Part shown: positions 8,813 to 37,800 of the stretch, one piece after another
Layout of the letters: each line of letters starts with the position of its first letter
Numbering within the stretch: the stretch's first letter is position 1
Assembly (NCBI RefSeq): GCF_003073045.1
Contig: NC_037590.1
Span: forward strand, 1,199,516-1,263,515
Length of the DNA stretch: 64,000 bases
Source of the DNA: Pomacea canaliculata
Lineage: Eukaryota > Mollusca > Gastropoda > Architaenioglossa > Ampullariidae
Direction: 5' to 3'
Made by a program: the position numbers and the translations under genes
Notes under the pieces: model-generated
Database searches by the model: none
What the model was told of the DNA's origin: nothing
Seen by the model: the letters and a program-made list of their open reading frames with translations, nothing else

Positions 8813-10085
8813 ATGATGATGATGTAGTTTTATAACGCGCTAGTATCTGCATCACAAAGATGCGGTGATCCCAGCAGCCACCAAACTGCAGGTCAAATGA
8901 AAACTTCAAATAAGTTTAAACAAGTTAGTCTTAAGATTTTTCTTGAAAGATGCAATACTATCAGACTCCTTGGTCGAGAGGGGAAGCGAGTTCCACAAAA
9001 GCGGGGCTACATTAGAGAAGGATCTAAATCCCGCAGTCTTCTTGTTAGCATTCCCTGACTGAACACTCGGTTGTTCAAGTCTGAAGTGGGCTGCTGAACG
9101 AAGGTTCCGCTGAGGTTGGTAACGGCGAATGAGTTCTTGCAGATAGGCGCAAGGTCGTGAAGACAGCCATATGTTAAGGTTAACAATTTATGCTCAATTC
9201 TCTTCTCCACAGGAAGCCAATGTAGGTCACGAAGTACAGGAGTAATATGGTCAGATTTTTTCTTTCCTGCAACTATCCTCGCAGCCGTATTTTGCACTCG
9301 CTGTAGCCTCGACAACTCGCTCTTTGAAATCCCCCAGAGGCAGCTGTTGGCATAGTCTAATTTAGAACCGATGAGGGACACAGCAACTGCATTTGCAGTC
9401 TTCTTATTAAGACTGGGTCGGAGTCGTCCAAGAGTGTGGATATGGAAATAACATGCCTTGACTACAGAACTGACATGATCAGACATAGTAAGAAGATTGG
9501 CGACATAGAGTCCAAGGTTCCGTACGGAGCTGGAGAGGAGGATTCTAGCTTGACCCACTTGGATGGAGTCTAGAGAGACTTTGCTAAGGCTAAACTTGGA
9601 ACCACACAGCATCGCCTCTGTCTTCTCATCATTAAGCTTGAGTTTATTCCTCAGCATCCATGACTTGACCTCTAAACAACAATCTTCTACAGCACAGACT
9701 GCCTCACGCACCGACTCACTGTCAGTACTAAATGAAAAATAGAGTTCAGTGTCATCTGCAAACATCTTACGGTTCACATTATGCTTCTCAATGAGAGGAC
9801 CAAGCTGAGATGTGTAAATAGAACAGAGCCCTTTGGGACACCGCACAGCAATGGAACTGTCACTGAAGAAGCTTGATTGACCATCACCCTTTGTGTGCAG
9901 TCACTGAGGTAGGAATGGAACCACCAATGCCCACCTCCATCTGGAGACGAGTTAGTAGAGTGGAGTGATCAATGACATCGAAGGCCGCACTCAGATCAAG
10001 GAGGACCACGAGTCTCCCTGCATCCGCACTGCACAGAAGATCGTTCATAAGACGCAGAAGGGCTGTCTTACAATAAACACCACTC
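8813..10085 (-). pseudogene. 5'-truncated non-LTR retrotransposon (CR1/L2/Jockey-like), reverse transcriptase remnant
   Basis: The minus strand encodes reverse transcriptase pieces: motif A (LVVLLDLSAAFDVIDHSTLL, near 10.0 kb), the block just before motif B (FHSYLSD, GVPKGS), motif C as FADD (MFADDTELYFSFS), then LKLNDEKTEAMLCGS and the C-terminal LDYANSCLWGISKSELSRLQ and LHWLPVEKRIEHKLL. The 5' part is missing before about 10.08 kb. A short deletion with a frame change after GVPKGS removes the GPLLF part of motif B, so the copy is dead. Its 3' end (left side) has a short CATCATCATATTATT-like tail at 8810-8830. Confidence 0.85.
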
Positions 10086-19163: not shown

Positions 19164-22073
<2,910 letters not shown>

Positions 22074-22115
22074 ATGTCCTGTAGACCATCTGTTCTGGGA
22101 ATTCAGGCTAAAGGC

Positions 22116-22121
22116 ATTAAA
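22116..22121 (+). terminator. RPL3: poly(A) signal of RPL3
   Basis: ATTAAA lies 43 bases after the RPL3 stop codon. Confidence 0.65.
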
Positions 22122-22220
22122 GTTTAAAATTAAGTGCTGTTTTGTTCTGTTTTACAAAGAATGGTCTGAAAGTGATTTAATGAGCACATCGAAGCTATAA
22201 ATAAAAAAAACTAGTCGTGC

Positions 22221-22347
22221 CCACAGTGCCAGCTCCAGTCTTCACAATAGTTGATGAACTGTCCGTTCCTAACACTGTGGATATTAACGGGATCTGATGA
22301 AATCAAGGCTTGTACTCGAGTTTCTTGCTCAGAAGATTCCCACATTC
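22221..22347 (+). ncRNA. H/ACA box snoRNA, SNORA10/snR37-like, copy B, downstream of RPL3
   Basis: Second copy of the intron-2 snoRNA. Hairpin 1 (22221-22280) differs from copy A at one base, in the apical part; the pocket strands CCAGCT and CGTTCC are identical. The hinge reads ATATTA (22281-22286), a perfect ANANNA H box, unlike copy A. Hairpin 2 has diverged strongly yet keeps GGGATC/GATTCCC and CAAG/CTTG pairing, and ends with ACA at 22342-22344. Upstream homology includes TATAAATA starting 25 bases before the snoRNA and a CTAGT also present before copy A. It lies about 100 bases after the RPL3 poly(A) signal, so its transcription source is open: read-through, own promoter, or another host transcript. 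Confidence 0.75.
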
Positions 22348-25206
22348 TTGTACCACAAGCCGAAGTTCTCAAAACTTCCCCTTTGATCCAACTTGTGCTA
22401 TGTGCAAATGTAAAAATATTTTACAGGGTTTTTGAGATCATTGAATACTTTACCAAGCAACATATTTCAATGTCAATAAACAGTGACAATGAACTAAATC
22501 ATCAGTGAAAGCTTTTTAAATCTGTCTTTTTCACCTTTTTTCCCCCATGACATCATTATAGCTATAACTGTCAAGTGGCCGCTGGTTGTGCTGAGCATTA
22601 AGTGTAATATAAAGTTAATTCCAACAGACATGTCATAGGACCCTTGATATTTTTTAATGAACAGGTAGTTTCTGGCCATTCAGTGTATCTAGAGAGCTTC
22701 ATTGTCAACCCCTTTAAAGGACAAACAGCTGGTGCTATTCCAGTAAACAATGACAAAATGAGGTTATCCATAAGATAACTTTAGCATATCGAGGAACAAT
22801 AAGAGCAGTTGCTCTCAATTCTGGTGAATCAAGATGCATGTCTAAATAGGTTGTTTCCAAAGACCTTTTCATGAGGGCAGTAGCGCGTAGTTTTTATTTT
22901 AAGGAACCTGAAATAAATTCTTAATGTTGATACTATCAACCTGCAAATGAAGGCCCCAAAAGACGAATGTTTCCTTCTAATGCTGCACCTTAATAGGTGC
23001 TCGCTAAAATTCAAATGTTAGGCATCAATGAACAGCAAAAGAATCAAGCTAGTTGACTCCAACTTCTCTAAAACAACCTGTACTGCAATTTTGAAGCCTA
23101 GTAAACAGTTGTGAAGTATGTAGAAACTCGTTCATTTAACAGGTAAATTGCATGAAAGGCTTAGACTAAAATTGTTAAATTCAATACCTTTACATTGGCA
23201 AGTGAAAATTCATATTTCAAATTTTCTGTCTACTCAAAATCTGACCTGGTTTAAAAAAAATGGTTTCGCCCTGAGGGAAGGTACACGTGGTGCTACTTTA
23301 ACAAGTTTTCCCTAATTGCTACCCAGGCCCTCAGGCAGGGCAGAAATAAGCAATAAAACTTATTTCTCAGCTGAGTAGTTGGCGTTGCTGAAGTATCGCT
23401 CCAAGTGAAGATTTAAAAAATGTGTGGACATGTACTGATCATATTTGGTTGTCCTAATGTGTGTATTCTGTAAGTGAAAGGATGTATGTTGAGGTACATC
23501 GGGGACCATCCCAACTCAATATAAAAAATTTGCCAATATAGTACATTTTTGAGAAAACTGGTGCCACGGATCTGCAGCCGTTGACTTCTTGAGGCATTCA
23601 CTCCAAGCAGAACAGTTTCCTCTGACCGACGGGATGATGAAAGGCACGAATGTCAAAAAACTTTACATCACACTGAGTATGTTACCCTGGTAGTATCGAT
23701 CCAAAAGGTTCTAAATCTTTACACCAACGAAAATGACGTGCACCCAGGTGACTGCTTCACTTTTCCTCAGTGAAGGGAAAAACTTAGGGAGCATGAAGTG
23801 AGCAACCTTGCCGGTAGGTGCAAGAATTAGAACTAAAGGTGTAAAAACACTAATGAGAGGTGGCACATTGATAAAAAAACTGGCGCAGGGTAGTAAAGAA
23901 CCTCGGCAGGTTAGAGAGATGTTTACTGGTGTATTGAACATCCATGTCAATTCTAACCAAGCCTTGCCACATACACTAACTCTAATAGTGCTACTGATCC
24001 TGCTCTGAGCGACTTTCTACGTGGCCATGTCCTGTATAAACATCCTGAGGACTGTTGTCCAGGGACGCGTTTTATGATGACAGTTCTCGCAGTGTATGAT
24101 CTTTTAGCCAGTGTGTTCCTCACACGGGCAATTCCATTCGATTTTCACAGGAGGAAAGATCTCAGCATCAAAGCTTTTAAAATGTTTGGGTGCCAATTTG
24201 GATTGCTCCCATGATACAATGACAGCAGACAATTTTTGTTGAACTTGCATCAAGGGAAAAATAGTGATTAAAAAAAAAAATCCATGCCATCCCCTGTAAT
24301 GTAAATGAAACTAAAACTAAATTATGTTGCACTTGCACCATTCAACCAGACATCAGAACAAAAAGTGTAATCTTTTAAATTTATTCTGCACATCTTTAGA
24401 CCAACAGGAACTTTCCTGCATAGGGAACTCTTCAGCTTGCTATACTGATGACATGAAAGTGAAGACACTGCTGCCATAGAGAACCAGTCAAATAGCTATT
24501 CACCTCCTGAAAACTACATTCTGAAGTACATGGCACCACTGACCTAGGAACAGTTATTTAAATGTACAGCACTCTTAGTTCTGCAATAAATGAAGCTGTG
24601 ATTTCCCTTTCTCATATTCACGCATAGGACGTACATAAAAATGCAGGTGTTCAAAGATCGACTATTAAAATTCTGGTACAGCACACCCAGCGACTGTTAC
24701 CAGACCCACACATACACACACCTTCAAGAATTCTGAAACCAGTGCTACAAGAACATTCACCACCTTACTTTTATGCTTTTTTTGCTTGGATTGGAATGAC
24801 TTACCAGGTCAAAAGGAACTGTTACTGCAGTAGAACACTACATATTTCATCCTGAGAAGATATACTTGAATGACATTGTATACATATAAGCACACAAAAA
24901 TGGCTGTAAACATAACTACAGAAATGAGAGAAAGAGGAGACCAGAGAGGGACATTCAACAGGAGTACCACAAAGAGGCACTCACCGCTCAATTTTCCAAG
25001 CAGCAAGCTCTCTCTGCAACAGATATGGCCCTTGAGAATGGCCATGCTAAACTCCACATATTAAGGAAGCATACAGACATGGGCAAAACAAAGAAGCAAA
25101 CTTGACCGATGTGCCTGGGAAAAAGATGTTACACAGCATGCACTGAGCAAAAATGTCAAATTGAAAGCAATCCTGCATGTGAAGCTATGTGCAAACAAGG
25201 AGTCAA

Positions 25207-25271
25207 AAGTGTCGCCAACTTCTGTTGGGGGCCAAGAGCCCAACAACAAGACTGCTTGTTGTGACCAACTT
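25207..25271 (+). other. three-helix RNA-like element, copy 1
   Basis: Pattern: outer stem, GCCAAC, GTTGGG/CCCAAC hairpin, CAACAAG/CTTGTTG hairpin, TG, outer stem. In this copy the outer stem is short (GTC with GAC), and the third helix has A-T where other copies have G-C. The alternative pairing CCAAC with GTTGG is also present. Strand is uncertain. Confidence 0.6.
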
Positions 25272-25694
25272 GCCTTTTTCATGGAGGCTAGGGTCAATAG
25301 TCTTTGTGCCAACAATTATCCTCTAAAGCAAAAAAAGTACCTAGTCATGCATACTTGCAATATGAGATGCTAGAAAAGTCTGATCCGAGCAAAACAAAAA
25401 AACTTGCCTTGATGATGGCTACTGCATATCTTAATAATCTTCAATTTCTCTCCTCTGGTAGTTGGAAGTTTTGTAGATTAACAATTTACTAAAAAAATTT
25501 TGCAATCATACTTTTAACCTGGATATTGAAAGAAAATCCATTTTTCCCATCCCAAAGTAAAAACATAAACAGCAACCAATGAACCTAGCTAATGAGATTT
25601 TAGAAGAAACACATTTACTTATGCAAACTAACTAAAAAGGCCATTCCAACTCACAGAGCCTAACATGCACACATTCTATTAAAGACTTGGAAAA

Positions 25695-25755
25695 CACATC
25701 GCCAACAGTGTTGGGGATCTTATGACCCAACAGCAGGTTTGCCTGCTGTGATGTG
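25695..25755 (+). other. three-helix RNA-like element, copy 2
   Basis: Outer stem CACATC (25695-25700) with GATGTG, middle hairpin GTTGGG/CCCAAC, third hairpin CAGCAGG/CCTGCTG. Compared with copy 3, both sides of two outer base pairs and of one pair in the third helix have changed together. Confidence 0.65.
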
Positions 25756-25820
25756 CTTTCCTTTTCTTGGAGTTTGCAGACCAGACAGTAGGAACCAACT
25801 GCAATGTTAGGCTAAAGCAG

Positions 25821-25881
25821 GTGCATCGCCAAAACCAGTTGGGGATATAAGACCCAACAGCAAGACCTTGCTGTGATGCAC
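25821..25881 (+). other. three-helix RNA-like element, copy 3
   Basis: The most regular copy: outer stem GTGCATC (25821-25827) with GATGCAC (25875-25881), GTTGGG/CCCAAC, and CAGCAAG/CTTGCTG with a two-base loop. Confidence 0.65.
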
Positions 25882-25936
25882 TTTAAGGATGAACTACAAC
25901 ATATAACTTTGCCATTAAAAACAAAAACATCTCTGG

Positions 25937-25997
25937 GCATCGCCAACCTCAGTTGGGGGCCGTGATGACCCAACAGCAAGTGAATCTGCTGTGATGC
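25937..25997 (+). other. three-helix RNA-like element, copy 4
   Basis: Outer stem GCATC (25937-25941) with GATGC (25993-25997), GTTGGG/CCCAAC, and CAGCA/TGCTG with a wider loop. The next outer position is a mismatch. Confidence 0.6.
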
Positions 25998-26517
25998 ACT
26001 TATAATAATCAATCTTTACACAGATCCACCTCTTTCTGCAGCCACTCACACTTTGTACAGCTCTTTGCTCAGTCACTTGCTCGCCAATAGTTATCCAACA
26101 CGGAGTAACACAGTCTTTCAATCATGCATTCAGCTAACACACAGCGCACCGTACCTTTGTCAGAGACTCAGGTTTCAAAGCAGTCTGCGCCAATATTTGC
26201 TTGAAGAGGGAAAAACAAAGAAAAAAGTCCTGTTACTGACAGATCTCCAGTGATGAAAAAAAAGTAACAAATGTCCACCAAACGAAATGTCATCATTTAA
26301 AGCACCTGAGACTGAAAAAGATGACCGTGTAACTAAAAATTCACCCAATGAGCACATCCAACGCGTACATAAATGCTTTTATATGTTCTTATTTTTGTTA
26401 AAGCTCACAAAATAATCTATCAGCTTGGTACTCAGTCTCTTACAATCTTAATAACATCCCAACCACCCAATGTCATCAGATGGGGGTTAATAATCTTGGA
26501 CTAACATGCTCCTCCAG

Positions 26518-29500
26518 TCAAAAAGGGCTCCCATGCATTGGAGGACCCTGCATGCCTGGACGGAATGGCATGTTGAATGGCCCAGGTGGTCCAGCTGGCC
26601 GCATGCCCATTCGAGGTGGCATCCCACCCATCAAAGGCCCTGTCAAATTACAAGCACTATGATAATTCTTTCACAACCAACAAACCATTGAAGAAATGTT
26701 GATAGAACAACAGACATATAACAGTGTGCTTTAAGCCCAAAAGGAGCCACCAGTTAGGTGGTTTCATCTAAGCAATTTAAGAAAACTTAAATGAACAATC
26801 AGATACTTCTAACCATGCACTTTCTGTCCTTTTTATGACTAACAAATCTAAAGATCGTCTTAAATTTAGGATCAAAGTTACAGAATAAGTTCTGTACATA
26901 AATATTAAAGACAGAGAGAGGCTTGTATATTAACTGCTTACCCTGACCCATTGGACGAGTCATACGTGGGATGTTGGGCGGATTAACAGAGTTTAGATTA
27001 GCCAGTTTAGCATGATACTTGGGCATGGCAGCACGCTTTTCTTCCTGCAAATGTAAAGTTAGCTACTGGCACTGAGCTAGCTGCTCCCATCAAACAAATC
27101 ATTTCAAGGTTACAAAAATATGTCCACCCTCTTCTGAAGCATACCCTAAAACAGTACAATTTCCACTTAAAAAAGTTTTCTTTACCCAATTAAAAATAAG
27201 GTAATATTTATTGCATCACCCTCAAAGATCTCAATGACGCATCATTTCAGGCTGAAAAGCAATTACGAAATCTACATCTTTAAAAGACAATAGGAAGAGT
27301 TGAAATTGTCAACCAACCTTATTTGAAAGTGAACGGAGCTAAACAACATGAAGACTTGGCCATGATTACTTACCAAAGAGATATCCTCGTCAGGATGAAT
27401 GAGTTTAGAGGTCAAACCTGAAGCAGACTCCGGTTTTTTAATTGTGGGTGCCCCTGTGATGGTGGCTGAGGATGACACAGCTGCTGCTGCTGGAAAGGTT
27501 GGCTTCACTGGTCCTATGGTTGATGAAGCCGTGCTAGAGACCACCGGTCCTGCCTTGAGCCAAATATTGCAGTCAAAAGCCCAATTTCAAAACTACACAT
27601 GCTTTTTAAGCAACCTTCCTTTAACTTTTCTAAATTTTCACTGCATTTTGCAATACTACATACAGAAAAATGCTACCTTAAAGACAATGACAATCAAGTG
27701 AATCCAATAAAAAGAATGCTAAATAGGGGAACAAGATTTAATTATTTTCTTATGCTAACAAACATAAAAATACGATATAATGATCGGACATAAGCATAAA
27801 GTTACTCGGGAAAGTTGCTTACCTGTACAGCTGCAGGGAAAAGAGGCTTTGAAGGCCCTGCTGTGCCCATCATGTTTGGTGCCATGTTTGGAGGCATAAT
27901 AGGTTGTGGCGGAATAGGAGGCATCCTGCAAAGTTAGATTTCCTTCTAGGTATATCAAGGAATTAATTCTGATTATTGCAATATAATTTATAATTATTAG
28001 CTTTGCACAAAAGCACATTTTACTAATTTTGAAGTAGGGACTGGCACACACGCCTTTCCACTGGTGGAAAGCAGGCCATCACATAATAATCGCTTTTTTA
28101 AGTCAACGTATATACACATAGTTAAATCTGTAAAGATTTGTGGAAATGCCTGTTTTCTAATAAAATTCAAGTTCCAAGAGTAATAAATCTTGATGCAAAA
28201 TAACTTGAACTTGTACCCGAAAGATGTAGTTTATGGAAAATTGACAGTTTTAATACAGATTAAAAGACGTGATTTTTTTCCTTAAAAATCAAAGTAAAAA
28301 ACTTGAAACAATTATGTCTTGTAGATTAGAAATTACAGCTGTTTAAAGTTTGTTACACTTATATCCATATATCTGCCTGAAAGATTAATGATTTTGTACT
28401 ATTTCAAGATGCATAGCTTACAAGTTTTTTTTATAATGGTTACTTAGAAGTAAATGTTTTTGGTGCATTTAGTATCATAGTCCTTGAAACAGAATAATCA
28501 AAATATGATGATTACAAAATGACGAATAGAAAAATTGCATTTTCCTCAATTTTTTTTTCCAGATATGTCCTATTGCAGATTAATTTTTGATTCACCCAAG
28601 TAGAAAATCAGTCTTGGTAATTTCTTATATAAAGTACTTGAGGACTTCCTATGTTCCAAGCTGCTGTATTTAAAAATTGTTCAATACGTCTAAAATAGTT
28701 AGTTGTGATGCAAATCACAAGCTTTAAACAGCAGTATCTCAAATATTGAGACAGAGATTAGTTTTTCCCCTTCTATGTTCCTATAATTGAACATAAACAT
28801 GAAAAATTATCCATTTCAAAAAAAAAAAAAAAAAAAAAAAAAAAACCAACAAAAAATGCAATTTTGTGTGCCTGTACCTATTTAGAGCTAATCCTCAAAA
28901 TCGTCAGGTTTTGACGTGCAACTGAAGGAATCAGAAGCCAGGAGAATACTCACCTTGGTCCCATTGCTCCCCATGGTGGCCCCATGGGACCCATTGGTCC
29001 CATAGGCCCATGGGTCCAATAGGACCATAGGTCCCATTGGCCCCATCATTGGTCCTGGAGGCATTGGTGGCATAAGCCTGGTGCAGGGAATGGTATGCCT
29101 CCGATTGAGCTGGTGCATTATAGGTGGCACTCCAGGCTGTGAGTCCTCTTCATCTTGTGAGTCATCTGCTTTGCCATCATCTAAAAACAGAAGTTCACCA
29201 GGAATTATATTCCATTATATCAGGGGTGGGCAAATAGCGGCCCGCGGGCCGCATGCGGCCCGCCAAGTGGTTCTCTGCGGCCCGCAGAAGCCCTTTGGCA
29301 ACACAAAAAAAATATTACCGAAAACCGAGTTCCAAAGAAGATTTGTTGATTTTAAGGAGATGGAATCAAAATTCAACATATTATAATGTCCTTTTCTGTT
29401 CATGTGATGATGCATCTGATGAATTACAACTTGAAACTGATACACCTTCAATCAGATCATGCATTGAAGGAAAGGTTTTATTCCCTGATCACTGGTTGAG

Positions 29501-32500
29501 TTTATAAGAGCCTCTCCAACAAATCATTTCCTTGTTTAAGAGTATTTGCTGCCCAGCTATTTTCAATATTTGGTTCAAGTTACATCTGTGAGCAAAGTTT
29601 TTCCTGCATGAATATAAACAAGTCAAAGAACAGGTCATTGCTTTCAGATGCAAACTTGCAGTCAAGTTATGAGAGTATCTACCAGTAATTTTGAGCCAAA
29701 TTTTAAAAAGAATTGTTCCAGCAAAATTGTATTCAAAATCATTTTTCTCATTAAATTGTATGTGCTTAATTGTTCATTGTGGTTTTATATTTATTCCCAC
29801 AGTGTTTACATATTTCATTGTGCTCATTATTAAAATAAATGCGTTTGTTACAATTTTGGCGATTTTACGTCGTTTTGTATTCAATTACAAGGTGCGGCCC
29901 TAGGACTAGTCATGACCCAGCAATGCGGCCCTCGGAACAAAAAAGTTTGCCCACCCCTGCATTATATGTAACTTATAATAACCAGACGCATACACCTTAA
30001 CACTCAAGGACTTAACATAAAAAATGTAAAAATCTTACCTTGTTTTTTATTTTTGTTTTTTTTCATGTGCCTATGGCATCTTCCTCTGGTATCCTCCATG
30101 CCATAGATTTCGATCTCTATAGGATATATGTTCTCCAGGAAAGAGAGTTGGGGAAATCTGTACTTTGTCTACCGTTTTCTCTTGTGAACCTGAAAGAGTA
30201 ATCAAATATGGCACTGAAGTAAAGCATGATTTGGTGCAAACATCACACAACTCAACCCTGTTGCCAACTCAAACAAAAGGATAACAAATCTCAGATGTTC
30301 AATGCGCCAGCCATGTCTTATCACGTATGATGTCAGGGTTGTCACCATCCCCGACATTATTGTTAATGTCATTTTTTTGCAGTGGGTAAAAACAACAAAT
30401 AATTTAGTCACCGATACACAAAAGAATGAAATGAAAAAAAAAATATAAAATATTTCAAGTATTCTAATAACTTCCTGATTTGTAGATGCATCTCTTTTAC
30501 AATGCATTAGCAACAATTATAAAAATGTTTGATACAACTATGAGAAAAACTCACCTGCCATAACAGAAGAGGCCGGCGGTTTAATTTGACAAGCCTGTGG
30601 CCAGTTACAGCTTCTTGTGACAAATATGATGATTTGAAATAATGCTTTGCCTTTTGGTGTGAATTAGGATTTTTTCATTTCATCAAACTCGGGCATCCAC
30701 CAACGCACGGCATTACCAAATACCTGAACTCTGTCAAGGACAACATTCTTTCACTCTTTTCCTACTGCTTAATATCAATAAAGACTCACCACAAAATGAC
30801 ATACCATGTTTTTCCTCCCTTTAACAGATGCACTTAGCATCACCCACTCACCAGAAAACAAAATGTTTACTTTACCAGCCCTTTAAGCATCCAACTATGT
30901 CACAGAAAATGGCTTTAAATGTGCGTTTTCAATAAGTGAAAAAGACTGCACTATCGTCCTCTAAGCAGTTTCACCCCAGCAAACCTGTCTGAGCTACTTG
31001 AGGCCTTACCTGAGCTAGTCTTTTCATACTGATTTGTTGCCTTTCCCTTCATGCCTACACATCAAATGTGAGAAATTTCTTTTCATAGGGAATTCTGGTC
31101 TTTGTCTCTTTGAACTGTGTTTTATGTCAATAAATATGAAAAATGTTTTTGATCAAGCTCAATACATAGACTTAAGTACAAGGCCATTCACATCCGAAAT
31201 TCCTCAGCTGGCTTAGCAGGAATGGCGATGACATACTTTTCTGGAAATGTATTTTCCCAGAAAGACAGTTTGTTTGTTCAGCATAGTGCTGAGTACTTAA
31301 TACACCTGTACCTGTTCTACTGTCTTATTGCAAATAACCAAATAGATATATAGACAAGTATGATGTTTCCTCCTATCAAAGATAAATTCTTTAGTTTAAA
31401 TGTCGTTAACAGAGCAGATTTAAGTCGGGCTGGAAAATACGGTAAGTCAGATAGTTATCAATAATCAAAGACATTAACGAAAATATATTATGCCATAACA
31501 GTCGTCATCGGTAGTGGAAGGTCTTAATAAGATTTTAAGTGTATTCCTGTTTAACTCAAGTAAGGTCACCTGTGTTTTCAGAAAGATGTCTCCATCAGTT
31601 GCTTAAAAAAAAATTATACAAAATAACTTTATGTCATTTTTGTGCAAAAATATAATTTAAATTAGTTTTTAAATATCATTTACCAGGAAATTGAGCTGTT
31701 TTTACCGCGAGGAAAATGGTATGTTTGTTGGGTTAATTTTTTTTTTTTATTCACATTTATCAGCATACTTGAAATGCCTTTTAGATTCGTATTTCGGAGG
31801 TAGTGCCACAGTGAAAACTTGACAAGTATGTAAAAAGTTCAGATTATTAATACACACAAGTAAAATTTTTCATCGACAGCACATGTATCCAGAATTAGGA
31901 AAATCTTCTATCATATTTTGCTCCCTATACAACAAATTTTGATTTGAAAAAGACCAGATGTCTTGTCATACAAACCAAGGGAAGTAACTTGTAGAGAAAT
32001 GATTAAGCTTCAAAATGACCTAAATTTGTCATTCTTGTACTGTTATAACCATTCACAAACATTTAAAAATAATAAAAGCACTGTTACACGTGTATGATGT
32101 GCATTTTCAGCAAAGCGCACGCCACAGCTACAGATTGCCGGTGTGACCAGTGAGTTTTACAGCTTGAACTTGGATGGTGAATGCTTTATCATCTCTTGAG
32201 CTCCTCCTACATTGAAATCAGTCTTTTACATTAAACATTTTACCGGTAGCATTTTATTGTGAACTCTGTACTTTCACTTCTTTTAGATATATATATTATA
32301 TGCAGAGACTTCGCTAATCAGGTACTCATTTTATCTTGAAGACATCAAGTACAGTAAAGCACCAACATCACTTGTTGTCAATCCATCTTTTGGGGCCGGG
32401 GCGGACTATTTACTTTTCGTCTTGGGATGAAATGGTCACCTGGATGAATTGATTAGCTGGTGGGACGATATGATGCTTTTTGCAGTCTTCTACCATCACG

Positions 32501-33642
32501 TGCGCATGTAACAAACAGTTAAATTTCCACAAGCTATCCAGTAAGATACTTTCAACTGACATTTGAAAAAAAAAAAGTTACTTAAGGGATATGTAACATG
32601 GGTTGGCGGTTTTTAGTATCGACAAAATGAAAACACCACATGACATGATTTCCATAACAGTGCTCCTTCCTCTCTTATTACATGTCATCGTGGCAGGTGC
32701 TTCCCATAGCGCTATCAGTAATCTCTTGCCACTTCGCGCCTCACCTTTCGTTGGCTTCGGTTATTTTGTGGGTTTTTATAAAAATTAATGGGAAAAGTAA
32801 TTCGCGGATCTACGATTTTTTCACGGATTTTCTGCAAAAATTTGATCTGGAAGATATATATTTATTTTATGAATTTATGATGAAAAAAAGCATAGTGTAT
32901 AAAAAATATATTACTAATACTAACAATAAAGAATATAAATAATAAAATTGAATATGGAATTACAGTAAATAGTAGATGTATTTACTCTGAAACGAGAACC
33001 AGCATTGCTGGCCTGAGACGCTACGCGCCTACTCACAAACAGAGTGTGGGAGATGGTTATTAAGGAACTGTAAAAGGTTTATGTAGCGTAAAAGTATGGG
33101 TAGGGTTTATAAAGCCTTAATATAATGTATATAAAATACCATAAATAAATATACCGTTTCTATTTTGCAGATTTTCGGTTATCGCGGGGTGGTTCTGGAA
33201 CGCATCTCGCCGCGATAAACGAGAGATTACTGTTCTACATTAGATCCTTGTGTGTACCAGATTTGATTCTTGATTTAAAACAATTTCCTTTGCATTGACT
33301 AAATGCCAAGAAAATCATTTTAGAAATGTTACGACTAAGCAAGGTTAAAACGTTTAATTTCAATCAATATAAGTTCTACATCGTACTGGTTGTCATACTT
33401 CCTAGTGAAAATTGAAATAAGTGCGGTCTTTACAAAAAATTATCTGTCATGTTGACGTGACATCAATAATATAGTACATTGTATTGTAACAACTTTACGA
33501 AATGCGACAACAACGAGGATCATGTTCACATTTTCCATCAGATATAGAAAACATTAAAACCAAAATCACATCAAGAATAAACGTAGTTACTTATAAGGTA
33601 CCAGCACCAAGGTTTTGACTGCTTCTTCTTCTTGCGACCCAT
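26518..33642 (-). CDS. ZNF207: ZNF207 / BuGZ zinc-finger protein, with several frame breaks in its 5' exons
   Basis: Microtubule- and BUB3-binding spindle-assembly factor, also found in spliceosomes. Exon 1 (ATG at 33642) encodes MGRKKKKQSKPWCWY, the family start. The zinc-finger exon (about 30690-30555) is recognisable only across frames (EFDE, ILI-H-KAKH, ICHKKL, TGPGL-like pieces). Exon 30189-30039 holds VHK...VDKV and IEIEIYGME then IPEEDA in shifted frames. Exon 29180-28954 has a GMPP/GPMGPM-rich run whose frame changes at least twice before PPWGAMGPR. The last four exons are clean and in phase: 27925-27823, 27553-27374 (SKLIHPDEDISL, the conserved block next to the BUB3-binding GLEBS region), 27044-26942 (EEKRAAMPKY) and 26639-26518, ending MQGPPMHGSPF and TGA. 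A hAT element sits between the two broken middle exons. Frame breaks may be sequence errors. Confidence 0.88.
28818..28845. repeat. homopolymer run of 28 A
   Basis: A run of 28 A in a ZNF207 intron, about 110 bases from an exon. No retroposon body is visible on its left, so it is listed as a simple repeat. Confidence 0.9.
29221..29959 (+). mobile_element. hAT element with perfect 8-bp target duplication and a transposase C-terminal remnant
   Basis: Ends CAGGGGTGGGCAAA...TTTGCCCACCCCTG are inverted repeats, with GCGGCCCGC-rich subterminal repeats. The flanks are CATTATAT at 29213-29220 and 29960-29967, a perfect 8-bp duplication. The interior (plus strand, 29330-29710) carries pieces of the C terminus of a hAT transposase of the kind also seen in vertebrate ZBED/GTF2IRD2-like proteins: FQRRFVDFKEMESKFNIL, DDASDELQLE, then KSFSCMNINKSKNRS-like and MRVSTSNFEPNFKK, in more than one frame with stops. 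The N-terminal and catalytic part is gone, so it cannot move itself. It lies in a ZNF207 intron. Confidence 0.88.
30720..32715. other. intron of ZNF207, no recognised feature
   Basis: AT-rich sequence between the zinc-finger exon and the MITE near 32.7 kb. No exon, RNA gene or dated repeat was recognised. Confidence 0.45.
32716..33232. mobile_element. Tc1/mariner-type (Tigger/pogo-like) MITE, 517 bp
   Basis: The left end CAGTAATCTCTTGCCACTTC and the reverse complement of the right end, CAGTAATCTCTCGTTTATCG, match over about 12 bases and then loosely. Inside are the phrases CGCGGATCTACG, TTCACGGATTTTC and GGTTATCGCGGGG, then TTCTGGAACGCATC, typical of a widespread Tigger/pogo-like repeat. The TA target duplication could not be placed exactly. 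No transposase ORF is present. It lies in a ZNF207 intron. Confidence 0.6.
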
Positions 33643-34179
33643 TCTGAAGGAGAGAACAAGGAAATTTTCCGTTTGAAATAAGGATAAATCCTTCTTCCAA
33701 AAAATCACGTTTAAGATGGCGGCTTCTAACCGGATCTGCCAGGTCACTTCGCACCTGAATGGGGAAAATCACGACGTGCATAGGTGGATTGCCGTCTGTC
33801 TGCCAAGACCAACTCTTTAGTCTCTTGCGAAGTGAGCAGCTATTAGTCTTGCGAGCCGTATGAAAGAGTGTGACTTTACCGGAAGCTTTCTTGTATCATG
33901 CCTCGTTTTAGTAGTTAATCTGAAATGTGAATAAACCGGAAGCTTTCTTGTATCATGCCTCGTTTAAGCATTTAACTGGGGGGGTAGCAGTCCAGGGATA
34001 TTAGTTCGTGGGGAAAATAAACTTTAAATGGAAATAAAACTTTAAAAAATAATTTTTCTGTATTAATGGACTTTTGTCTTTTACCGTAAAAAATCGTTAA
34101 GAGATTATTCTAACATAAGGGACTTATTAAACACTCGACCAATAAAAACTGAGCGACAAAAAAAAACCAGGAAGCTTAT
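33643..34179. promoter_or_regulatory. shared upstream region of ZNF207 and the CARMA-like gene
   Basis: The ZNF207 start codon (minus, 33642) and the candidate first exon of the CARMA-like gene (plus, about 34180-34234) are divergent and about 0.55 kb apart. The interval contains two copies of ACCGGAAGCTTTCTTGTATC followed by ATGCCTCGTTT, starting at 33877 and 33934. Confidence 0.45.
33877..33965. repeat. 57-bp-spaced direct repeat in the divergent promoter
   Basis: Two copies of a 31-base unit, ACCGGAAGCTTTCTTGTATC plus ATGCCTCGTTT, start 57 bases apart. CCGGAAG is the ETS-type core often found in bidirectional housekeeping promoters; a role here is inference. Confidence 0.75.
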
Positions 34180-34234: not shown

Positions 34235-34872
34235 GTAAGTATAGAGTGCAGAGAGCATAACATGACACAAAGCTATGACTGGTTTAAAGTGGAGGAATAT
34301 GAACAGGGGAGAAGATTATAAAATATGATATGTAGTATATTGAATGAACTATAAATGAAAAGTGATGAATAGAAGACGAAAGACTTTCTACTTCGTTTTA
34401 ACTCTCTTCTGTTATTTGCAGATTTCCCCTCTTTAAATTGAGGATAACACCGTAAAGCTGTTGTTGGGATTATAATACTATAACACTTTTCCCACTAAAA
34501 ATCTGTCACTGAATAAAAGAGAATTAAGCTGTACGAGTTCTTTTTTGGGTGGCGTGGGGCGGGGCATATAATAATGTACCTATTGCATCCTTTCTCACAA
34601 TTGCATGTTAAAATATAAAATTGAAAATATATACTATAGTATTGCATTTAGTACTTTGAGTATCTAGTAATATCAGATATCACAAATATCTATCGCTATC
34701 AACTGATCAAGTAATAATATACTGATGAATAATGTAGCTATATGTGATTTTTAAGATGCCATAGTATCTCAAAATGTGAAGATGAAATTATCTTTTTTCC
34801 TGATGATTCAATTTTCATATAATTCAGACAAGAAATTTCCTGGGCCATTTACTCAAACTGAATCATTTGCAG

Positions 34873-37800
34873 ATGATGGCTGAATCTTACACAAGTGTAC
34901 TGGAGGAGAACCGCTACACACTAGTAAGCAAGGTGGATCCAGAGCCTTTCTTGGATTTTCTACGACAGTTACACATCTTGTCAGAAGAGGATTGCCAGAT
35001 TGTTCAAAACTACTATCACAACAAAACACGAAGGGAAAGAATGCGTAAGTTGATTTTTAATAGGCTGGATGGTGCAATAGTAGGTTGCATGTCACCCTCA
35101 ATTTAAAATTAAACAATACACAGCAACATTATATTTAAAATATTGTTCATGGCAAAGATGAATAGTAAACAAGTAAATGAAAAATGGAGAAGAATGCAAG
35201 ACAGGAGAAATCCACTGGCACACTTGTTACTAAAAATCTATTTGAACAATTTTTTTCTTTCTAAATGTGAAAGCCAGAAAAGAAGACAGAACAAGGGGAC
35301 AGGGCTAAGAAATTGGAAATTGTGGAACTATTAAAAGAAAATGGGGCAGAAGGCAGATCTGCTTAAACTGGCAACCCGTCTAGATTGAAGACAAGTGTAA
35401 AAGGGTCAGTTTCCACTTAAAGGTACACAAACATTTGGGACTTCCAAATTATTAAGAATTATTTTTACTTCCTGCCATCACAAACATTATAAATGGCAGC
35501 TTCTCCTCGGGTGTTTTCCCATCTTTGTTTAAATATGCCCTGGTGAAGCCACTATTTAAGAAATCCATGCTTGATGTCAATGTGTTGAACAATTTTTGCC
35601 CAGTTTCCAACTTGTCTTTTCTCTCAAAGATCATAGAGAAAGTAGTTTGGACACAGCTGTGGGCCTACTTACAAGAACACCAGCTCATCCCCCATACTCA
35701 GTCAGCATATAGTACTGAAACTACTTTAATTAAAGTGACCACTGACATGTTATCTGCACTTGACAGTGGAGATGTTTCTGCCTTAACCTGCTGGATCTAT
35801 TTGCTGTATTCAACACCATCGACCACTCTCTGCTTGTTCATAGACTCCACACCCTCTACGGGATTTCTGGACCTACCCTATCGTGGTTCAATTCCTATCT
35901 CACTGATAGGACACATCTGTGTTTGTTGATGGTCAAACATCTCACCCTGCTACACTTGTGGCGTCCCACAAGGCTCAGTAACCTGCCCAGTTCTGTTTAT
36001 TCTGTATATGAAGCCATTTTCATCTTGCATCCAGTCTCATGAGGTTTCTCATCAATCATATGCTGATGATATGCAGCTGTACTGGTCCACTCCACCGGCT
36101 GAGTCTTAATCTGCTACCAGCACCATAGAAGTTTGTATTAATAATGTCAAAGACTGGATGGTAACAAAGTTAAGCTTAACAATGATAAAACAGAAGCCCT
36201 CCTATGTTCGAGAAGAAGAAATTAATTCATCTTCACTCATTTGTCTTCCAAGTCACATCAAGGTGGGCGAAACCAACATTACTTTTGTGTCCTCCATCAG
36301 GAACCTGAGATTCATTGTCACCTCAGACATGACTCTTGATAAACAAGGTACAGCTGCCAGTCTGCTTATTATGAGCTACCCTTCATATTTTGTCTACTGC
36401 GCTACTAACACTCTTGTTGTACGTTTGTTCTATCCAGACTTGATTACTGCAACTCCTTGCTTGCTGGCTGCCCTGAATACCTTCTTCACAAACTCCAGAA
36501 AGTACAGAACTCTGCTGCACGTCTGGTGCTTAGAGCTAGGAAATGGGACCACACCACTCCTCTCTTTCGATTATCTGCACTGGCTACCCATTTGTTTTCA
36601 CATCCAGTACAAACTGTCTGTGCTGTGTTTTAATTTCTTTGCTGGCACCTGCCCTGATTATTTTTCTGAACTGCTCTTCCTTTAGGTCCCATCTAGACAA
36701 CTCCACTTTTAGTCTGATGATCATCTTCTTACTCTTCCTGTTACCAGAACAACAACATATGGACACAGGATGGTCAGTTATTCTGCAGTGAAACAATGGA
36801 ACTCTCTCCCTTTCCATGTCCACCACCTACCCACTATTGAATCCTTTACAGGTGCACTGAAAACGCACCTCTTCCGTAAACATTACTCCTAACAACCTTT
36901 CCCATGATGGTAGTCCTTTTTCACAACCTTTCCTTTTGCAATATCATGTTACTCTCAACTCTTGTTCTTGTTCTTTGGATCTTCTTTACATTTTCTGTAT
37001 TGGATTTTATTCTTCATTAGTACTGTTGTTTATTCTTTAATAGTTCATATGTTAATTTGTTTGTTTTCCTGTCACTCCTACGCTGTCCATGGTTCGTTCT
37101 TGTTCTTAAACGCTAAGATCATACTCCTTAGGAGTGTGAGTATGCGCTTGACCGAAATTTGCATTTATTATTATTAAGAAGGGGATTTGATAAAACAAAA
37201 GTATTTACAATGTGAACAGATGATTAAGCACCAACATGAGGTTTGTACATTGTCAAAGTAAGCTGTGAAATCCATGGCTGATTTCGTGAAACTCAAGGAA
37301 GATGAATACTTTAAAGAAAGCTGATGTGTCACTGTCGACACTGTACGTTTTCCCTTTTTTCCCCTAAAGGGAGATAATTACAAGCTCACTTTTCTTTTAA
37401 TCTAGTGCAAGTTGGTAATCCATTGACTTGGCAGGCAACTTGAGCCTAACTACATTGTTTCGAGCTTGTCATGCTTTATAACAGATAATTATATATGTTT
37501 TGTTCATTGTTTTCTTTGCATTTCCAGAGGGTGTTTTTGGATATCCTTGACACAAAGGGCCAGAAGGTGTCGAGCAGATTCTGCACTCAGCTTTTGGCTG
37601 GGAGTTGCCCCCTGTCTATCGGGAGATCTTTAACAAGAATCCAAGATCCTCCACCTGACTGTAAGTAATGGTTTTTAAAGGAATAAAAGCTATTAATACT
37701 GTATTTTGTTTTATTCATAAAGTATTCCTGGCACTGATATGTGAAAAGAATTTAAAAAAATACAAGGTGAGATCATAAAAAATTATGACCCTGATCCTCA

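Follow-up and report, generated by a model that had tools for sequence, protein, structure and literature searches.

Four copies of a probable structured RNA element in the probable 3′ UTR of the ZNF207 gene of Pomacea canaliculata

Four related copies of a 61–65 nt element, lying between positions 25207 and 25999 of the window (the whole stretch of Pomacea canaliculata DNA analysed here, 64,000 nucleotides), have undergone compensatory changes that hold one structure in all of them, which confirms the paired stem changes claimed in a preliminary description of this DNA. The structured element is real, probably under selection and so far uncatalogued, and is present in four copies in one gene within the reach of our searches. 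We give a rough probability of 0.5 to the reading that it acts in cis as a lineage-specific regulatory RNA element, present several times in the 3′ UTR of the ZNF207 (BuGZ) mRNA and recognised through its four-way junction; its function is one that we infer. The coordinates of the copies and of the gene features around them are collected in Table 1.

Table 1. Positions in the window of the four copies and of the gene features on either side
Feature	Position	Strand	Remarks
Copy c4	25935..25999	−	65 nt; first in the transcript; four-way junction P1-H1-U-H2-H3-C-P1
Copy c3	25821..25881	−	61 nt; second in the transcript
Copy c2	25694..25756	−	63 nt; third in the transcript; most stable (z −5.62)
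Copy c1	25207..25269	−	63 nt; last in the transcript; short outer stem
Last coding exon, open frame	26521–26670	−	ends in TGA
Stop codon TGA	26518..26520	−	last coding exon of a ZNF207/BuGZ-like gene; read from the sequence
Inferred 3′ UTR holding the four copies	24360..26517	−	from the stop codon and AATAAA
Probable poly(A) signal AATAAA	24380..24385	−	first AATAAA after the stop, then T/G-rich sequence
RpL3 stop	22071–22073	+	our own reading of the sequence
AATAAA after the RpL3 stop	22200	+	

Four copies and their common fold

Two core patterns of the element gave 3 and 4 matches in the 64-kb window, against 0.00 expected from 100 shuffles each. A covariance model (R1) built from c4, c3 and c1, with c2 left out, recovered c2 at 64.0 bits (E = 2.3e-19), while the next match in the window reached 10 bits; the training copies themselves scored 78.1 (c4), 80.5 (c3) and 75.7 bits (c1). 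The full model, run with filters off over positions 20000–34000, detected no copy beyond the four, and a second model (R2), applied to the window together with 9515 and 9985 bases of flanking sequence, likewise returned no additional copy. Besides the four, these searches gave weak matches, most of them single + strand hairpins within the known copies. At 26079–26103 (−), past the stop codon and before c4 in the transcript, the sequence GTTGGATAACTATTGGCGA looks like one end of the element in truncated form and is possibly a decayed fifth copy or a chance similarity; it received no score from the full model in the filters-off run over 20000–34000. A coding meaning of the copies was rejected, since the differences between their lengths (65, 61, 63 and 63) are not multiples of three.

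Folded in isolation with a few flanking bases, all four minus-strand copies have as their minimum free energy (MFE) structure an outer stem with three hairpins, forming a four-way junction. The layout of each copy on this strand is P1 (7 slots), H1 (8), U, H2 (5), H3 (5), C and P1 again, with P1, of up to 7 bp, continuous into the 8 bp of H1, and the 5 bp of H2 continuous into the 5 bp of H3. The linker pattern around the junction is 0-1-0-1, and the unpaired U and C are invariant in 4/4 copies, while the hairpin loops (2–5 nt) are conserved among copies neither in length nor in sequence. The outer stem of c1 consists, in the isolated-copy fold, of 3 bp, a 2-nt bulge and 4 bp, and appeared shifted in the RNAalifold run with trimmed copies; in c3, the junction form accounts for only 6% of the ensemble, whose centroid is a competing fold.

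The 25 pairs across four copies give 100 pair cells, comprising 86 Watson–Crick, 7 G-U, 1 A-C and 6 other combinations (93 standard). Double-sided changes with pairing kept occur at 6/25 pairs: P1 has three, H1 has two and H2 has one, and H3 is without any compensatory change. Examples, in the order c4/c3/c2/c1, are H1 pair 4 (GC/GC/GC/AU), H1 pair 7 (GU/AU/GC/AU) and P1 pair 5 (AU/AU/AU/GC); 13 of the 25 pairs are invariant. When the 3′ letters were shuffled among copies, the observed number of paired cells was reached in 12/20000 cases and that of double changes in 16/20000; in a second shuffle set, each was reached in 0/500. Four of five pairing measures were reached in 0/500 shuffles, and the remaining one, further pair types, was unremarkable (56/500). 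When the partner columns were displaced by one to three positions, the paired cells fell to 37–50%. Random placement of the observed stem substitutions left a mean of 16.2 unpaired cells, compared with the 7 seen, and was as good in 6/20000 cases; support was weaker with changes confined to the 12 varying pairs (91/20000 for unpaired cells). For double changes, the corresponding counts were 3/20000 over all sites and 197/20000 over the varying pairs alone. Because the four sequences are related, these counts are guides rather than probabilities, the sample being four copies related by duplication at one locus in one species. For the minus strand, RNAalifold returned the junction structure with an energy ratio of 0.97 (column shuffles, 0/1000). 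Compensatory change, by which a conserved structured cis-regulatory 3′ UTR element is judged, is thus found among four paralogous copies alone. Selection on RNA structure, as first suggested from the sequence, gains support from the recovery of c2 by R1, the paired-change shuffles, the placement test and RNAalifold.

The spacers between copies (53, 64 and 424 nt in transcript order) are unrelated to each other in sequence. Between the 5′ flanks of c1 and c2 some resemblance remains, with a score of 29 where shuffles give 11.3 ± 6.0; the remaining 11 of 12 flank comparisons stay within about 1.5 sd of their shuffles. The earlier statement that sequence outside the stems is not conserved was nearly right, the exceptions being the invariant junction U and C and the trace shared by the 5′ flanks of c1 and c2.

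In the longer context, the common fold is kept unevenly. A local partition function over 24360–26520 retained all four helices in c2 alone, with mean pair probabilities of 0.73–0.99 across four settings. Copy c4 reached 0.36–0.43 at best, c3 kept H1 in part and is predicted to pair with c4, and c1 kept H2 and part of H1; all three compete with neighbouring sequence. The four-way junction reading is weakened by this weak folding of 3/4 copies; either protein binding may be required for the folds to form, or the folding model may fail here. Further down the same 3′ UTR, at 24936–25031 (−), there is a hairpin GAGTGCC/GGTACTC unrelated to the four copies, and the lowest folding z of the scanned region (−5.2) falls at 24936–24999 (−).

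Gene setting and distribution of the element

The copies lie 519–1311 nt past the stop codon of a minus-strand gene, in sense orientation and upstream of the first AATAAA; no ATTAAA occurs on the minus strand between that stop and the AATAAA at 24380..24385. Exons upstream on the same strand have a GRKKKKQSKPWCWY start and proline/glycine/methionine-rich parts. We take this gene, whose last coding exon is at 26521–26670, to be ZNF207/BuGZ, in line with the preliminary description; no Pfam family was found for the exon pieces tested, and three probes of the gene matched this locus alone in the genome. The neighbour on the + strand is RpL3 (Pfam PF00297, E = 5.5e-22). Given the ends of RpL3 (+) and ZNF207 (−), each with its AATAAA, the two genes converge, and the copies fall inside the probable ZNF207 3′ UTR. 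As read from stop codon, AATAAA and orientation, all four copies are thus probably located in the ZNF207 3′ UTR on the sense strand, a placement that had been raised as a possibility and can now be called probable. The copy region is presumably transcribed.

Several other features of the window were recorded. At 30070–30735 (−), the exons expected for the zinc fingers and an IEIEIYGMED stretch look broken by frame changes, with the pieces in different frames, while the gene matches this locus alone in the assembly; a pseudogene seems a less likely cause than errors of assembly. An open frame at 34807–35106 (+), upstream of ZNF207, contains a CARD domain (Pfam PF00619, E = 2.4e-08), and another open frame, at 9007–9900 (−), matches the reverse transcriptase family PF00078 weakly (23.1 bits, cut-off 29.6) and is a retroelement fragment. 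In the surroundings of RpL3 (+), a block of about 75–80 bases, CCACAGTGCCAGCTCC ... ACACTGTGGATAT, occurs twice in nearly identical form, at 19651–19750 and 22221–22320, one copy upstream in the RpL3 region and the other just past the RpL3 poly(A) signal. The block includes a TGATGA-like word and may represent a snoRNA of the C/D box class; up to E 5, Rfam gave no match there. An RpL3 intron at 20789–20889 (+) matches snoU83B below threshold (24.7 bits at E = 0.046, cut-off 35), and related C/D box snoRNAs likewise; in vertebrates, U83 is located in RPL3 introns.

Thousands of genomic copies, the outcome named beforehand as speaking against the element, did not appear when the P. canaliculata assembly (440,159,624 bases, 24 contigs) was searched: the strictest pattern had four matches in 440 Mb, all of them these copies, and its reversed control had 0. 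Looser patterns gave matches beyond the four in 35/39, 1/5, 3/7, 8/12 and 8/12 cases. A model search on 16 of the 35 off-target loci and on all 12 from the 1/5, 3/7 and first 8/12 patterns reached 11.8 bits at best, compared with 64–81 bits for the copies; the second 8/12 set partly overlaps the 35. Rarity in the genome is accordingly pattern-based, and strongly changed or degenerate copies without the pattern words could escape. A DNA search with c2 as query found c2 itself alone; plain DNA search is too insensitive here, because this query misses its own neighbouring copies. As far as these searches reach, no other gene of the genome carries the element.

In other collections, the pattern was matched by 11 stretches of viral sequence and by at least 119 of prokaryote sequence, and our estimate is about 120 chance matches in 257 Gb. 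The 91 viral and prokaryote loci that were scored reached a maximum of 19.4 bits, with 14 matches at E ≤ 10 and a best E of 0.0043. Since the scores are at most 19.4 bits, we take these pattern matches as chance, and kinship with viral or prokaryotic RNAs was rejected.

At its gathering cut-off, Rfam 15 gave 0 matches in the 64000 bases on both strands, in keeping with the first impression that the element belongs to no recognised family. At E up to 10, the region 24300–26700 (2401 bases) gave five weak matches, all far below their cut-offs; those touching the cluster were MIR5286 (16.1 bits, cut-off 93) and snoR9 (15.7 bits, cut-off 90). Two known kinds of RNA were rejected by other means: ARAGORN (bacterial code) found 0 tRNA or tmRNA genes in the window, and 0 of the 12 hairpin loops have the 6 nt or the CAGWGH sequence of an iron-responsive element (IRE). 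Among the matches listed in the literature on ZNF207/BuGZ and UTRs, on conserved RNA structure in molluscs, on four-way junctions in 3′ UTRs, on structured RNA in Pomacea and on ZNF207 autoregulation, no description of this element was found.

Strand and competing explanations

The preliminary description had drawn the element as a three-helix form that includes a helix GTTGGG/CCCAAC. That drawing turned out to be what the + strand, which is antisense to ZNF207, adopts as its consensus fold; on the sense strand, the three hairpins and the outer stem meet in the four-way junction. The + strand would be the functional one if the three-helix fold were carried by a transcript that is antisense to the gene or independent of it, and by energy this strand does no worse: RNAalifold gives exactly the three-helix fold, the column-shuffle z is equal on the two strands (−7.13 on plus, −7.15 on minus), and the mean single-copy folding z is lower on the + strand (−2.39, −4.96, −3.18 and −2.57, compared with −2.26, −1.58, −5.62 and −1.55 on the minus strand). 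Among the lowest 14 of 262 z-scores in a scan with 64-nt windows, 7 belong to + strand windows over copies and 2 to minus-strand ones. Yet the RNAalifold energy ratio is 0.85 for the + strand against 0.97 for the minus strand, and the three-helix form is the MFE structure in 2/4 isolated + strand copies. Its central helix, GTTGGG/CCCAAC, is invariant across copies and carries no covariation of its own because it never varies; it competes with H2 and H3, and H2 pairs 3 to 5 covary although they would lie inside the loop of that helix. A minus-strand RNA is also favoured by the G-U pairs, seven on the minus strand against one A-C that would be G-U on the plus strand (9/256 one-sided by our reckoning, for events that are not independent), and it is the minus strand that runs within the probable 3′ UTR. 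On the common fold, energy ratio, G-U pairs, H2 covariation and gene direction, the minus strand is favoured, though not settled, as the functional strand, and we consider a functional + strand quite unlikely. A two-state switch between the junction and GUUGGG/CCCAAC found no support in c4, c2 and c1, the junction being better by 9.4, 6.3 and 9.5 kcal/mol, respectively.

Other explanations accept the copies but give them a different origin or role. The single locus and the flank similarity of c1 and c2 are what a young local duplication of palindromic DNA without function would leave, its pairs persisting by descent or gene conversion, and the 13/25 invariant pairs and the weak folding of 3/4 copies in context would suit it too; nevertheless, the stems differ by up to 32% (identity between copies 0.68–0.86) with pairing kept, double changes exceed those of random placement (3/20000 for all sites, 197/20000 for varying pairs), and most flanks have lost their similarity where the element was retained, which makes this alternative unlikely, if one to be taken seriously. 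We also regard as unlikely that the copies are small structured RNAs acting in trans, either processed from the ZNF207 3′ UTR or separately transcribed, with the UTR as their host. Such RNAs would explain the compact closed folds, each with its own outer stem, the unrelated spacers of 53, 64 and 424 nt and the mostly unalignable flanks, but Rfam at gathering score and ARAGORN offer no family, tRNA or tmRNA for them, our own reading of the copies revealed no C/D or H/ACA boxes, sense orientation and position suit an mRNA, and loops that all differ between copies would be odd for a guide RNA. That the copies are repeated, palindromic and short is reminiscent of a transposable element remnant (MITE, SINE or similar); however, a MITE or SINE was rejected because the copy number by the strictest pattern is four in a single cluster (4/4 matches, 440 Mb), and the looser-pattern loci searched (12/12 and 16/35) held no element, with 11.8 bits at best, so that such an origin appears extremely unlikely.

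Proposed mode of action and relation to known systems

If the element is a cis-regulatory one, as we prefer to read it, each sense-strand copy would fold into a compact four-way junction whose 0-1-0-1 linkers would permit stacking of P1 with H1 and of H2 with H3. A trans-acting protein would then bind the junction in each copy, and several bound copies would jointly control how stable the mRNA is, how it is translated or where it is located. It is probably the junction that is recognised, because the linkers U and C and the adjoining helix ends are conserved and the loops are not; loops that vary around a junction that is kept point to a factor reading junction shape rather than loop sequence. 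Multivalent binding is suggested by the presence of several copies in one 3′ UTR, by analogy with the transferrin receptor (TFRC) mRNA. To our knowledge, vertebrates and flies apart, there are few known cases of a structured element that recurs within a single animal mRNA. Since the element is confined to one gene within search reach, both its host and its target are known, which makes it simple to test. Control of ZNF207 dose would be of interest because ZNF207 is described as a mitotic and splicing protein (PMC12191140).

A bolder version of this regulation, which we hold to be very improbable, is an autoregulatory sensor: snail ZNF207, or a U1 snRNP complex with ZNF207, would bind the four junctions of the ZNF207 mRNA in place of the U1 snRNA junction, limiting polyadenylation, stability or export of that mRNA. 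The U1A protein controls its own 3′ UTR, and the sensor, if true, would be a multivalent, junction-reading counterpart of this self-control. For the human protein, action through U1 snRNP factors is reported, and so is RNA binding that is largely non-sequence-specific (PMC12191140), for which reason autoregulation is put forward solely as a bold possibility.

Among known RNAs and proteins, several invite comparison. U1 snRNA contains a four-way junction, as the element does; on our own reading there is no visible sequence resemblance between them, and Rfam gave no U1 match in the window. With tRNA-like cloverleafs, of which mascRNA is an example, the element shares three hairpins, two having 5 bp, and an outer stem that reaches 7 bp at most; it differs in its first arm of 8 bp, its loops of 2–5 nt and its linker pattern 0-1-0-1. 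On the protein side, one study gives a KD of 0.638 uM for the binding of an RNA four-way junction by the HMG-box of MAEL (mouse Maelstrom), and HMGB1a binds it too (PMC4373776). Animal proteins can thus bind RNA four-way junctions; the junctions concerned were test substrates for binding assays, with no known link to ZNF207 mRNA or to this element.

The IREs of TFRC are located in the 3′ UTR of its mRNA. Among them are the IREs A, B, D and E, and an IRE is described as a single hairpin with a 6-nt apical loop, CAGWGH, and a 5′ C bulge (PMC12230718). Like the element in P. canaliculata, the TFRC cluster consists of several structured copies in one mRNA, related by structure and not by their flanks, and we would liken the two in architecture and presumed mode of action. 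Unlike single IRE hairpins, the copies described here have three hairpins, a four-way junction and unconserved loops of 2–5 nt. Structured cis-elements in 3′ UTRs are, as a kind, already known; what is new is a repeated four-way junction with a conserved core and free loops.
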